From assembly GCF_001544015.1 (NCBI RefSeq), contig NZ_AP014924.1, forward strand, positions 2,604,001 through 2,668,000: a stretch of DNA of 64,000 bases, read 5' to 3'. The translations under genes were made by a program, and so were the position numbers. The stretch comes from Limnochorda pilosa. Lineage in GTDB: Bacteria; Bacillota; Limnochordia; Limnochordales; Limnochordaceae. The notes below the pieces were generated by a model. It did no database searches, was not told where the DNA came from, and worked only from the letters and a program-made list of their open reading frames with translations. Shown here one piece after another: positions 50,441 through 55,829 of the stretch (the first letter of the stretch is position 1; each line of letters begins with the position of its first letter).

Positions 50441-52879
50441 TCACCGCACGCGTACACCCACCCCTTCCAGGGCGTCCAGGATCGCCCGAATCCGGTCGTT
50501 CACCTCGGCGTCGGTGAGGGTCCGGTCGGCCCGGAAGCTCAGGCGGTACGCCAGGCTGACCCGGCCGCCTCCCACCTGCTCGCCCTGGTAGCGGTCGAAG
50601 AGCTCGAGGCTTTCCAGAAGCGGCCCACCGGCCTCCCGTACCGTCTCGGTGACCCGGGCCGCTGGCAGCTCGCGGGGCACCAGGAGCGCCAGGTCGCGGG
50701 TGACGCTGGGGAAGGTGGAGGGCGTCCGGGCCAGGGGTGGACCCGCGAGCCCAACGAGAGGCGCCACCCTCACCTCGGCCGCATAGATGGGCCGGGGCCA
50801 GCGGCCCGCCAGGTCGAAGCGCTGCTGGGCCCGGGGGTGGAGGGCGCCCAGCCGGCCGATGAGGCTGCCGTCCAGTACCCAGCGGGCGGATTGGCCGGGG
50901 TGGTAGGGGTAGCCGGCGTCGGGCTCCAGCACCAGGGCCACGCCCAACAGGTCCGCGACCGCCTCCAGCAGTCCCTTGAGGTCGAAGAAGTGGACGTCGC
51001 GCCGCCCCTGCCACGAGCGGACCGGATGGCGTCCCGTCAAAAGGAGGCCCAGGCGCTCCTCCTCGGGTGCCTCCCGGTGGAAGACGCGCCCCAGCTCGAA
51101 GAGGGCCACCCCGCCCTCCTCCCCGTACTGGGACCGGCTAAGGTTGAGCCGGGCGGCCAGGATCAGGCCGGGCAGGAGGCTGCCGCGCATCACCGACTGC
51201 TCCCGGGAGAGGGGGTTCTCCAGGCGGAGCCAGTCCTCTTCGGGAACCTCCAGGCGGCGCAGGTCCTCGGGGTCGACGAAGCTGTAGGTGACGGCCTCGC
51301 TCAAGCCCGCGGCCACCAGCACGTCGCGGATGCGATCGCGCCCGTGGTAGGTCGTGCCAGGGCCGCCCACCTGGGTGCTGGCGGGAATGGTGGGCTCGAT
51401 GCGGTCGTAGCCGTACAGGCGGCCGATCTCCTCCACCAGGTCGGCCTCCCGCTCCACGTCCACCCGGCCCACGGGGGCGCGGGCCCGAAGCCCGCCGGGC
51501 GCCTCCCGCACCTCGAAGTCCAGCGCCCGCAGGCTGGCGGCCATCTCCTCCGGCGCCAGGCGGGTCCCCAGGAGCCGGTTGACCCTCTCGGCCGAGAGGG
51601 AGACCCACGCCCGTTCTTTCGGGACCGGGTAGACGTCGATGCGGCCCCTGGCGACGCGCCCGCCCGCCAGCTCGGCCACGAGGGCGGCCGCCCGGTCGAG
51701 GGCCAGGGGCACCAGGTCAGGGTCCAAGCCCTTCTCGAAGCGGAGGGACGACTCGGAGCGGAGCCCCAGCAGGCGGGAGGTCCGGCGAATGGACGGCCCG
51801 TGGAAGTGGGCGGACTCGAGCACCACCTCGCTGGTCCCCGGGTGCACCTCGGCCTCTTCGCCGCCCATGATGCCTGCGATCACCAGGGGCTGGCACCGCC
51901 CGGCGATCAGGAGCATCTCCGGGGTGAGGCTCCGCTCGGCCCCGTCCAGGGTGACGATCCGCTCTCCCTCCCGGGCCCGGCGGACCACCAGGGCCGCCTT
52001 CCCGCCCGACCCCGCCCGCACCCGATCGGCGTCGAAGGCATGGAGGGGTTGGCCCATCTCGAGCATCACGTAGTTGGTCACGTCCACCACGTTGTTGATG
52101 GGCCGCATGCCCGCCTGTAGGAGCCGCTCCTGCATCCACGGCGGCGATGGGGCGATCCGCACCCCCTCCACCACCCGCGCCGCGTAGCGCGGGCAAAGGT
52201 CCGGCGCCTCCACGATCACCTCCACCCGCTCCTCCACCGGGGAGGGCCCTTCCTCCAGCCGGATGCGGGGCTCGCGCAGGGGCGCGCCCGAGACGGCGTG
52301 CCACTCCCGGGCGAGGCCCAGCACGCTCAGGCAATCGGGGCGGTTGGGGTAGATCTCGAACTCCAGCACTTGCCCGGCCAGGGGGAGCGCGTCCGCGAGG
52401 GCAAGGCCCTCCGGCGGGCGCCCGGGCAGGATCCAGAGCCCCGAGGCATCCGGCCCCACACCCAGCTCCGCCTGGGAGCAGAGCATCCCCTCCGAGCGCA
52501 CCCCGCGGACCTCCCGCACCTCCACCGTCCGGGTCGCAGGGGCCCCTTCGCGCGCGCCCCCGCCCCGCCCGTCGGTCTCCGGCAGTCGGGTCCCTGGCGG
52601 GGCGTAAGGCACCCGGATGCCCTCCCGGGTGTTGGGCGCGCCGCTCACCACCTGGCGGCGCCCGTCGCCGGCCTCCACCTGGCAGACCCACAGGTGGTCC
52701 GAGCCGGGGTGGGGGCGGGCCTCCAGGATGCGGGCCACCCGAACCTGTTCCAGCACGCCTGCAGGCGCCCGGTGAACGCCCTCCACCTTGGGTCCGGCCG
52801 CGGTCAGCCGCCGGGCGACGGACTCGATGGGCTCCGCCACGTCCACGTACTCGGCCATCCAGTCCAGAGGAAGCCTCAT
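50441..52879 (-). CDS. pheT: Phenylalanine-tRNA ligase beta subunit
   Basis: 812 residues in the standard order: N-terminal segment (LPLDWMAEYVDV), tRNA-binding EMAP-like domain (VARILEARPHPGSDHLWVCQ), B3/B4 editing domain (NVVDVTNYVMLEMGQPLHAF), B5, the inactive synthetase core and the C-terminal anticodon-binding ferredoxin fold (TFPSVTRDLALLVP). With PheS it charges tRNA-Phe. The ATG at 52879, after AGGAGGTGGCGCC, overlaps the pheS stop (ATGA). Confidence 0.97.
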   Translation of the reverse strand: MRLPLDWMAEYVDVAEPIESVARRLTAAGPKVEGVHRAPAGVLEQVRVARILEARPHPGSDHLWVCQVEAGDGRRQVVSGAPNTREGIRVPYAPPGTRLPETDGRGGGAREGAPATRTVEVREVRGVRSEGMLCSQAELGVGPDASGLWILPGRPPEGLALADALPLAGQVLEFEIYPNRPDCLSVLGLAREWHAVSGAPLREPRIRLEEGPSPVEERVEVIVEAPDLCPRYAARVVEGVRIAPSPPWMQERLLQAGMRPINNVVDVTNYVMLEMGQPLHAFDADRVRAGSGGKAALVVRRAREGERIVTLDGAERSLTPEMLLIAGRCQPLVIAGIMGGEEAEVHPGTSEVVLESAHFHGPSIRRTSRLLGLRSESSLRFEKGLDPDLVPLALDRAAALVAELAGGRVARGRIDVYPVPKERAWVSLSAERVNRLLGTRLAPEEMAASLRALDFEVREAPGGLRARAPVGRVDVEREADLVEEIGRLYGYDRIEPTIPASTQVGGPGTTYHGRDRIRDVLVAAGLSEAVTYSFVDPEDLRRLEVPEEDWLRLENPLSREQSVMRGSLLPGLILAARLNLSRSQYGEEGGVALFELGRVFHREAPEEERLGLLLTGRHPVRSWQGRRDVHFFDLKGLLEAVADLLGVALVLEPDAGYPYHPGQSARWVLDGSLIGRLGALHPRAQQRFDLAGRWPRPIYAAEVRVAPLVGLAGPPLARTPSTFPSVTRDLALLVPRELPAARVTETVREAGGPLLESLELFDRYQGEQVGGGRVSLAYRLSFRADRTLTDAEVNDRIRAILDALEGVGVRVR

Positions 52880-53955
52880 GGCGCCACCTCCTCGTGCAGC
52901 TCGGGGATCCCTGGCCTGGCCGGTTCCACCAGGCGGTCGGGGAAGGAGGCCAGGAAGCGCAGGTCGTTGTCGTAGAAGAGCCGGATGTCCTCCACGCCGT
53001 ACTTGAGCATGGCGACCCGCTCCACCCCCATGCCGAAGGCGAAGCCGCTCACCTGCCCGGGGTCGTAGCCCACCATCTCCAGCACCCGGGGGTGAACCAT
53101 GCCCGACCCCAGGATCTCCAGCCAGCCTTCGCCCCCGCAGAGGCGGCAGCCCTCGCCCCCGCAGGCCCAGCAAGAGATGTCCATCTCCGCACTGGGTTCG
53201 GTGAAGGGGAAGTAGCTGGGGCGGAAGCGCACCCTCCGGTCCGGCCCGAAGAGGGCGCGGGCGAAGGCGACCAGGGTGCCCTTCAGGTCGCCCAGGCTCA
53301 CGGACCGGTCCACCAGGAGGCCCTCCACCTGGTGGAACATGGGCGAGTGGGTGGCGTCCGCGTCGCGCCGGTAGACCTTGCCCGGCACCACCACCCGCAC
53401 CGGCGGGCGCCGCGCCTCCATGGTGTGCACCTGCACGGGGGAGGTGTGGGTGCGCAGGAGCAGCCCGCCGGGAAGGTAGAAGGTGTCCTGCATGTCCCGG
53501 GCCGGGTGCTCGGGTGGGATGTTCAGGGCCTCGAAGTTGTAGTAGTCGGTCTCCACCTCGGGTCCTTCCACCGTCTCGAAGCCCAGGCCGGTGAAGAAGC
53601 GCAGGATCTCGTCCAGGGCCAGGTTGACCGGGTGGCGGTGCCCTGCAGGGGGCCGCCAGCCGGGCAGGCTCACGTCCAGCCGCTCGGCCTCCAGCCGGCG
53701 GGCTTCCTCGGCTTCGGCCAGCAGCCGGCCGCGCGACCCCAGCGCGGCCTCCAGCGCCTTCTTCGCCTCGTTCACCTCGGCGCCCCGGCGGGGGCGCTCC
53801 TCGGGGGGCAGGTCACCCATGCTGCGGAGAAGCTGGGTAAGCCTCCCCTTCCGGCCCAGGTAGGCCACCCGCACCCGATCCAGGTCGTCCAGGCTCCCGG
53901 CCCGGTCCACCTGGGCCAGGGCTTCTTCCTGAATCGAACGGACCTCCAGGTCCAC
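52876..53955 (-). CDS. pheS: Phenylalanine-tRNA ligase alpha subunit
   Basis: 359 residues: N-terminal coiled coil, then the class II core with HPVNLALDEILRFFTGLGFE, THTSPVQVHTM, RRDADATHSPMFHQVEGL and GFAFGMGVERVAMLKYG. A Cys pattern CWACGGEGCRLCG is present in the insertion loop and may bind zinc. The GTG at 53955 (GGGAGGGAGTGCC upstream) gives MDLEVRSIQEEAL; the upstream in-frame extension lies in the T-box terminator. Regulated by the T-box at 53984-54257. Confidence 0.97.
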   Translation of the reverse strand: MDLEVRSIQEEALAQVDRAGSLDDLDRVRVAYLGRKGRLTQLLRSMGDLPPEERPRRGAEVNEAKKALEAALGSRGRLLAEAEEARRLEAERLDVSLPGWRPPAGHRHPVNLALDEILRFFTGLGFETVEGPEVETDYYNFEALNIPPEHPARDMQDTFYLPGGLLLRTHTSPVQVHTMEARRPPVRVVVPGKVYRRDADATHSPMFHQVEGLLVDRSVSLGDLKGTLVAFARALFGPDRRVRFRPSYFPFTEPSAEMDISCWACGGEGCRLCGGEGWLEILGSGMVHPRVLEMVGYDPGQVSGFAFGMGVERVAMLKYGVEDIRLFYDNDLRFLASFPDRLVEPARPGIPELHEEVAP

Positions 53956-53983
53956 GGCACTCCCTCCCTCGACACATGCAAAC

Positions 53984-54020
53984 GAAAAAGGCCACCTCCC
54001 GTCCAAGGACGAAAGATGGC
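53984..54020 (-). terminator. T-box-controlled terminator before pheS
   Basis: GC-rich stem with GCCATC on one side and GGTGGC on the other, enclosing CGTCC/GGACG, followed by a T5 run on the minus strand. Confidence 0.85.
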
Positions 54021-54257
54021 TTCCGCGGTACCACCCTGGTTAGCCGCGCGCGCGGCTCCCTTTGCCGGGGACGAACCCCGACCCGCATAACGGGCGGGCA
54101 TCCGGCGCCGCCTACCCAGCCCGCGGGAACGCTGCTCCGCGGCCTTCAGCGGCCGGCTCGGGAGTGAACTTCGCTCCGGCGCCTCCCCGGGGGGCTTCCA
54201 GTCGCTGGCCCTCCCTCCCTGGCGGGGACGCTCTCCGGGCTACTCTCTCCGTCATCG
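53984..54257 (-). ncRNA. T-box riboswitch, phenylalanine specifier (pheST leader)
   Basis: Minus strand: stem I begins GATGACGGAGAGAGTAG (about 54240-54256), the specifier context GCGAAGTTCACTCCCGAGCC puts UUC (Phe) at 54166-54168, and the antiterminator core AGGGTGGTACCGCGG is at about 54023-54037, followed by a terminator. All parts of a class I T-box are present. Confidence 0.95.
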
Positions 54258-54271
54258 CCCTTGGGGCGTGG

Positions 54272-54367
54272 CTAGTTGGCCATCGCCTTCGATTGCCGGT
54301 ACAGCAGATAGGCGGCGATGGACCCGGTTCGTTCGAAGAGCCTCCAGAAGAAATCGGCGGCGAGCAC
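54272..54367 (-). CDS. YqzL-like microprotein (31 residues) in the pheST leader
   Basis: Read by hand between the pheST promoter and the T-box. The GTG at 54367 has AAAGGTGA six bases upstream and an in-frame stop just before it, so the start is well fixed. The product begins MLAADFFWRLFERTGSIAAY and continues LLYRQSKAMAN. The segment DFFWRLFERTGS plus AYLLYR closely follows the YqzL-family pattern (DFxWKxFxxTGxIxxYLLxK), tiny conserved Bacillota proteins of unknown function that in B. subtilis are encoded next to recO. It would be made from every pheST transcript, including those ended by the T-box. Confidence 0.72.
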   Translation of the reverse strand: MLAADFFWRLFERTGSIAAYLLYRQSKAMAN

Positions 54368-54404
54368 CCGGCATCACCTTTCCTGACCCGCTGTGGACGG
54401 CCCC

Positions 54405-54434
54405 ATTATACCACCATCCTTCAGGGCCGGGCAA
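54405..54434 (-). promoter_or_regulatory. Promoter of the yqzL-like/pheST unit
   Basis: Minus strand: TTGCCC (54429-54434), 18-base spacer, TATAAT (54405-54410) preceded by TGG (extended -10). Confidence 0.8.
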
Positions 54435-54538
54435 GGAAAGGCTCCAGAACCGGCTTTCCATTCTCAGGCGTTCCCGGAGCCGGCTGGCGCGCCCGGGGAC
54501 ACCCCGGTGCGGCGCGCGCGACCCTCAGAAGGGTGAAG

Positions 54539-55069
54539 GTGACCTCCCGCCGAAGCTTCGAGTCTGTGCGGTCCGGCGAGGGCCGACCTCTGGAAGCCAG
54601 GAGCGTGGTGGCGACGGTGAGCCGGTGGGCGATGCTGGTGGGCGTGACCTTGGTGCCCTGGATCGAGCTCCGGGGAAGCATCCCGCTGGGGTTGGCCTGG
54701 AACCTGCCCTGGTACGGCGTGGCCCTGGTGGCCGTGGCGGCCAACGTGCTCGTCTTCGTGCCCACCTACGCCGCCCTCGCGCTTCTCTACGACCGCTGGC
54801 TGTCGCGGACCTTCGTCCGCGCCCTGGTGGAGAGGGCCCGGCGGCGCGGGCAACCCCTCATCGCCCGCCACGGCACGTGGGGACTGGCGCTCTTCGTGGC
54901 GGTGCCGCTCCCGGGCACGGGAGCCTACTCGGGCACAGCCCTGGCCTTTCTCCTGGGCCTCCCCGCGAACCGGGCGTTCGGGGCCGTGGCCGCGGGCGTG
55001 GTTCTCGCGGGCATGGTCGTGACCCTGGTGAGCACGGGGGTGCTGGCAGGCGTCAGGAGCCTGATGTAG
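54539..55069 (+). CDS. COG2426 (small multidrug export) membrane protein
   Basis: About 176 residues. The core (LVPWIELRGSIPLGLAWNL near 38-56; then VPLPGTGAYSGTALAFLLGL near 121-140) is the signature of the Sm_multidrug_ex/COG2426 family, with four or five membrane segments. The family name reflects an old annotation; transport activity is not established. Start uncertain: the GTG at 54539 has AGAAGG six bases before it, while the GTG at 54608, after AGGAG, would give a product 23 residues shorter. It is divergent from pheST, and its 3' end overlaps the trmH-type gene by 17 bases. Confidence 0.8.
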   Translation: MTSRRSFESVRSGEGRPLEARSVVATVSRWAMLVGVTLVPWIELRGSIPLGLAWNLPWYGVALVAVAANVLVFVPTYAALALLYDRWLSRTFVRALVERARRRGQPLIARHGTWGLALFVAVPLPGTGAYSGTALAFLLGLPANRAFGAVAAGVVLAGMVVTLVSTGVLAGVRSLM

Positions 55070-55829
55070 CGCCCCTCCTCCGCCCCTGCTGGCGCACCCG
55101 CTCGTAGAGCAGGATGGCGCCGGCCATGGCCACGTTGAGCGACTCGGCTCCTCCGGGCATGGGGATGGTCAACGGCCGGGCCATCCGCCTCGAGACCGGC
55201 GAGGCGCCCCGGGCCTCGCTGCCCAGGATGAGCGCCCCCGGGCCGGTCAGGTCGGCCTGATCGGGGGAAGGGCCCTGGGCGGCCTCGGCCACCCAGAGGG
55301 AGAGGCCCGCGCCCTGCAGCGTCTGCAGAAGCGCTTCCGGCTCGGGCGCCCACAGGTGGGGGAGGCGGAAGAGGGCTCCGGCTGAGGCACGGAGCGCCTT
55401 GGTCTGGTAGGGGTCGGCGGTTCCGGGGAAGAAGACCGCGCCGCTCACCGCCGAAGCCCACCCGGCCCGCAGCAGCGTGCCCACGTTCCCCGGTTCCTGG
55501 ATGCCGTCCAGCACCAGCACGAACGGCTCCGGTGCCTCCAGCAGCGACTCGAGGGACCAGGGCCGCCGCCGCACCACCGCCACCACGCCCTGGGGCGTGG
55601 CCGTCTCGGAAAGGGTCCGGAGAACCCGGTGCGCCACCGGGTGGAGCTGGCAACCCGCCTGCTTCAGAGCGCGGAGAAGCGTGGCGTCCACCGCCTCGTC
55701 GCGGTAGAAGCACCGCTCCAGCACCGCCCCCTGCCGGAGCGCTTCCTCCACCAGCCGCCGTCCTTCGACCAGGGAGGCCCGCGCCTTGCGGCGGCCGTGG
55801 GGCGTCAGGAGGGCCCGGGCCGCCCGCAC
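55053..55829 (-). CDS. TrmH/SpoU-family RNA 2'-O-methyltransferase
   Basis: 258 residues as given from the GTG at 55829. The SPOUT motifs are present: LDGIQEPGNVGTLLRAG (motif 1), GALILGSEARG (motif 2) and IPMPGGAESLNVAMAGAILLYE (motif 3). An N-terminal substrate-binding part (ASLVEGRRLVEEALR) is also family-like. It probably methylates a ribose in 23S rRNA or tRNA. The reading frame extends nine codons upstream to a CTG at 55856, adding IESPDNPL, which matches the usual N-terminus (I-x-S-x2-N-P). That CTG overlaps the stop of the upstream gene as CTGA, so it may be the true, non-standard start. Confidence 0.92.
   Translation of the reverse strand: MRAARALLTPHGRRKARASLVEGRRLVEEALRQGAVLERCFYRDEAVDATLLRALKQAGCQLHPVAHRVLRTLSETATPQGVVAVVRRRPWSLESLLEAPEPFVLVLDGIQEPGNVGTLLRAGWASAVSGAVFFPGTADPYQTKALRASAGALFRLPHLWAPEPEALLQTLQGAGLSLWVAEAAQGPSPDQADLTGPGALILGSEARGASPVSRRMARPLTIPMPGGAESLNVAMAGAILLYERVRQQGRRRGATSGS

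Follow-up and report, generated by a model that had tools for sequence, protein, structure and literature searches.

Three described systems come closest to the locus considered here. In pheST operons such as that of Bacillus, the leader is a T-box RNA (Rfam RF00230), composed of a stem I with a UUC specifier, the T-box sequence and a terminator located before pheS. The pheST leader peptide of Escherichia coli is a leader-peptide attenuator, i.e. a short Phe-containing frame which precedes a terminator and pheST. The canonical YqzL protein, again as in Bacillus, is encoded next to recO and is characterised by the core [FL]W..F..TG....YLLY. Both the YqzL family and the T-box are known kinds of element. 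The pheST leader of Limnochorda pilosa shares features with all three: it has the stem I, specifier, T-box sequence and terminator of the first, the short Phe-containing frame of the second, and, encoded by this frame, the core of the third with a profile match above the Pfam cut-off. It differs from the usual pheST T-box in that a predicted translated cistron is placed between the promoter and stem I, so that the attenuated leader RNA would also be an mRNA.

The window, which designates the whole stretch of DNA analysed (64,000 nucleotides of contig NZ_AP014924.1, positions 2,604,001 to 2,668,000), contains this locus on the reverse strand (Table 1). The product of the small frame matches the YqzL profile of Pfam (PF14006) with residues 5-25 at 33.4 bits (E 5.4e-8), the curated cut-off of the family being 27 bits; the match covers positions 1-21 of the 44 positions of the profile, the second half of which is unmatched. 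It is the sole YqzL match in the 3.82-Mb genome. The core motif W..F..[TS]G....Y[LI].Y is present as WRLFERTGSIAAYLLY, and a search of NCBIfam with the frame product returned no matching model. Most of the yqzL copies surveyed are preceded by a ribosome site of the AAAGG/GGTG type. Upstream of yqzL in the window and in L179-L244, the ribosome site is longer than a plain AGGAGG and takes the form of a conserved AAAGG(G/T)TGTGG-like sequence.

Table 1 Features of the yqzL-T-box-pheST locus in the window (positions counted from the first nucleotide of the window)
Feature	Position	Strand	Evidence and remarks
SpoU/TrmH-type RNA 2'-O-methyltransferase gene	55053..55829	-	Pfam SpoU_methylase, 101.5 bits
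Sigma-70-type promoter	54405..54434	-	TTGCCC-18-TATAAT, TG before the -10 element; 10/12 consensus bases
Shine-Dalgarno sequence	54374..54381	-	AAAGGTGA, 6 nt to the GTG; from sequence
pheS-linked yqzL, 31 codons + TAG	54272..54367	-	GTG at 54367-54365, TAG ending at 54272; product MLAADFFWRLFERTGSIAAYLLYRQSKAMAN
T-box leader, specifier UUC (Phe)	54002..54264	-	RF00230, full model 1-219, 55 bits, E 2.7e-11
Intrinsic terminator of the T-box	53984..54020	-	13-bp stem (54020-53991) + T tract; only terminator-like site found
pheS	52876..53964	-	Pfam tRNA-synt_2d 339.7 bits, Phe_tRNA-synt_N 83.4 bits; start approximate, GTG near 53955
pheT, frame after pheS	50441..52932	-	ORF list; assigned by sequence and position; start approximate

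In the region 53900-54700 only one promoter-like site was found, the one listed in Table 1, with 0.0 expected in shuffled sequences. The T-box of the window has a UUC specifier loop, the T-box sequence GGUGGUACCGCG and a competing terminator followed by the cognate pheS, yet its score lies below the Rfam gathering score of 93 bits, which is a curation cut-off and not a mechanistic feature, and a scan of the whole window at the gathering score did not list it. Leaders of the same layout in many relatives score low as well (42-92 bits with RF00230), which means that standard annotation misses the G+C-rich T-box of the window together with many related leaders. The gap between the yqzL stop codon and the start of the T-box match is 7 nt. 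A separate promoter cannot fit into it, and transcription of the T-box RNA must therefore begin at a promoter that lies upstream of the small frame or inside it. It follows from this anatomy that yqzL is transcribed independently of the transcription of pheST, and its expression would probably be constitutive. The SpoU/TrmH-type gene directly precedes yqzL in several relatives (e.g. L154/L158); in the window, a divergently oriented gene for a small membrane protein (54608-55069, plus strand; COG2426-like by eye) is located between the two.

An earlier note, made from the sequence of the window, had described a GTG frame with a good ribosome site at a distance of six bases and a YqzL-like product, situated between the pheST promoter and the T-box and hence ahead of the regulated terminator. 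The profile match and the signals collected in Table 1 bear out this description in each of its parts, and the existence of a real gene for a protein of 31 amino acids between promoter and T-box is confirmed. The note had also held the frame to be too short for routine gene calling. It is indeed short, but this statement was too strong, because gene callers usually have their length limits at about 96 nt including the stop codon, and the frame, with exactly this length, is not clearly under them.

A pheS-linked yqzL is not special to the Limnochorda genome. Within the class Limnochordia, which has few cultured members (PMC11456536), a YqzL match was obtained in 59 of 61 genomes; pheS is located just downstream and on the same strand in 28 of 30 loci, the remaining two being cut by contig ends, and additional copies in the class likewise stand before pheS. 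In a sample of 101 genomes drawn evenly across the phylum, a PF14006 match lies upstream of pheS on the same strand in 70, at a distance of 234 to 1707 nt (in most cases below 670 nt), and a search with a pheS-linked-type profile recovered five further genomes (G132, G137, G146, G171, and G176), which brings the number to 75 of the 101. About 0.04 such neighbours of pheS would be expected by chance, as estimated from the number of matches and the genome size. The frame was also found before pheS in Moorella thermoacetica, Tepidanaerobacter, a Desulfotomaculaceae bacterium, and a Syntrophomonas; it was not found before pheS at the loci of Pelosinus, Desulfosporosinus, and Bacillus, where the T-box stands alone. 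At 57 of the 66 loci surveyed in detail, a T-box can be recognised in the interval from yqzL to pheS, and at 65 of them a TATAAT-like -10 element lies 33-74 nt upstream of the yqzL start codon (19.6 expected). The order yqzL-T-box-pheST, for which the earlier note had suggested looking in relatives, is thus conserved in the class and far beyond.

The pattern of substitutions in the frame is that of a protein-coding gene. Averaged over an alignment of 40 sequences, synonymous differences (pS) amount to 0.78 and nonsynonymous ones (pN) to 0.18, whereas the corresponding values (pS/pN) for the two alternative reading frames are 0.22/0.32 and 0.16/0.34. A strong synonymous bias, which had been named beforehand as a check, is thus present in relatives, and as it is confined to the frame itself, selection acts on the protein. 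The W, F, and G of the core are invariant in the 66 surveyed sequences and the Tyr is invariant or nearly so; conservation of amino acids extends over the whole peptide and not over the core alone. RNA folding around the start codon, compared with shuffled sequences at 105 loci, showed no excess (mean z 0.07), and a conserved RNA structure at this position is thereby ruled out as the reason for the conservation. As the frame is short and lies in a leader close to conserved RNA elements, it might also be a chance frame or conserved non-coding leader RNA, but this reading is refuted by the codon-level substitution pattern, and the profile match, the ribosome site, the occurrence in 75 of 101 genomes, and the lack of unusual RNA structure at the start also speak against it; we give it practically no credence.

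Two kinds of YqzL can be distinguished by size, charge, and neighbourhood. The pheS-linked proteins have 27-39 amino acids, a mean net charge of +1.1, and the signature A[DE]FFW[RK][IL]FE.TGS[IV].AY..Y[RK], whereas the recO-linked proteins have 44-60 amino acids, an acidic tail, and a mean net charge of -4.9. With the exception of G116 and G158, the examined copies away from pheS stand immediately upstream of recO. Since both kinds occur together in 27 of the 101 genomes, the pheS-linked YqzL is a second subfamily and not a displaced canonical yqzL, and the frame of the window is assigned to it and not to the recO-linked orthologues: with about 31 residues, a net charge of about +1, and no acidic tail, it differs from canonical YqzL in the protein as well as in its position before a T-box and pheST instead of next to recO. 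An AlphaFold2 model of the YqzL encoded in the window predicts, with confidence, a compact two-helix hairpin (H3-14/H17-30; mean pLDDT 93.5). Solved structures gave only chance matches when searched by sequence and nothing below E 6 when searched by fold.

Phe residues preceding the core Trp raise the question of a regulatory leader peptide, i.e. that ribosomes stall at the Phe codons (FFW..F) under Phe shortage, alter the folding of the leader and so contribute to the control of pheST, either together with the T-box or in its place. Tandem Phe before Trp is found in many members, and the pheS-linked type is richer in Phe at this place than the recO-linked one. An obligatory run of cognate codons, as expected of an attenuator, is nevertheless absent, since most members have FF..F but in whole branches the core contains a single Phe codon (VVW.IF types; L115, L117, L119, L124-L128). 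The conservation of the entire peptide and the lack of excess RNA structure around the start likewise argue against such a role.

Further evidence on this point comes from lineages in which yqzL, the T-box, and pheST have come apart. In the G155 family, G113 and G183 possess yqzL and a T-box, whereas six others have lost the T-box, so that yqzL is followed there by a short spacer, the former terminator, and pheS. The pheS ribosome site is situated almost directly after the retained terminator in L166 and L253-L257, and RNA polymerase could pass the terminator there by leader-peptide attenuation. In T-box-less leaders, yqzL is followed by a terminator with its stop codon 47-79 nt before the T tract (L179, L209, L230), which is the architecture of a classical attenuator; in the six T-box-less leaders, however, no conserved antiterminator or alternative pairing was found. 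A classical Phe attenuator was rejected as the main role on this ground and because the Phe codons are not conserved in all branches. Promoter-like sites were seen by eye between terminator and pheS in L199, L225, and L234, which suggests that yqzL and pheST have come to be transcribed separately in these cases.

In G116 and G158, a pheS-linked yqzL is located after a trmH-like gene and pheST has disappeared from this place; both use a divergent PheS (45% identical), encoded elsewhere and provided with its own T-box. This arrangement is seen at the loci L154 and L158 (with L245 and L246), where yqzL is at the trmH site and the divergent pheS elsewhere has a T-box of its own. The yqzL genes of G116 and G158 differ by eight synonymous and one nonsynonymous substitution, and their 3' flanks have diverged beyond good alignment, a pattern which indicates that yqzL stayed under purifying selection after pheST had left. 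This retention speaks against a leader peptide, and the frame differs from the E. coli example in its conservation as a whole protein, its family fold, the single Phe codon of some members, the persistence without pheST, and the presence of a separate tRNA sensor; altogether we consider this explanation unlikely. The survival of yqzL without a T-box and without a linked pheST favours a protein acting in trans.

Conceivably, PheRS or even the T-box is the target of the microprotein, which would serve as a small subunit, chaperone, or autoregulator and for this reason stay in the pheST leader. The linkage of yqzL to pheST is very strong, and the basic net charge (mean +1 versus -5 in the recO-linked copies) would agree with such a partner, whereas the persistence of yqzL where the T-box or the linked pheST is missing does not, nor does the occurrence of pheST with a T-box but no yqzL at this place, e.g. 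in Pelosinus, Desulfosporosinus, and Bacillus. We regard this possibility as doubtful.

Our preferred explanation, which we hold to be quite probable, is that the pheST transcript begins with a cistron for a two-helix microprotein of about 31 residues which acts in trans, and that the T-box gates pheST only. A single promoter would read yqzL, then the tRNA-Phe T-box, and then pheST. With charged tRNA-Phe, transcription would end at the T-box terminator, and the attenuated RNA would serve as yqzL mRNA; with uncharged tRNA-Phe, transcription would continue from the same yqzL into pheST. Synthesis of the microprotein would thus follow the strength of the promoter in either state, and the protein would act in trans, with only the synthetase being gated by the T-box. 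Translation, constant expression and action in trans are inferred from the conservation of the gene and the anatomy of the locus. Our guess is that YqzL has its partner in the translation apparatus or in the PheRS machinery, and the near-fixed place beside pheST could reflect a role in cis as well. A more far-reaching version, to which we attach little probability, would be that of a phylum-wide microprotein in the T-box leader which has the attenuated transcript as its dedicated mRNA and works with PheRS or the translation machinery, and whose own translation took over the control of pheST in lineages that had lost the T-box.

In a partial search of the literature, we found no paper on a fixed yqzL-T-box combination, on a separate subfamily, or on its breadth, and some copies may already be annotated by name in databases; the search returned no relevant paper on YqzL, the text matches to PF14006 being malaria gene numbers. 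The usual view of a T-box leader is that of a sensor RNA which is not translated. The leader described here also contains a protein gene of ancient conservation, found in about three quarters of the phylum-wide sample, and the deletion or transplantation of such T-box "leaders" would remove a protein too. The YqzL family is split into two subfamilies with different neighbours, and the linkage to pheST, the predicted compact two-helix fold, and the lineages in which protein, T-box, and synthetase are separated offer a handle on the function of YqzL.
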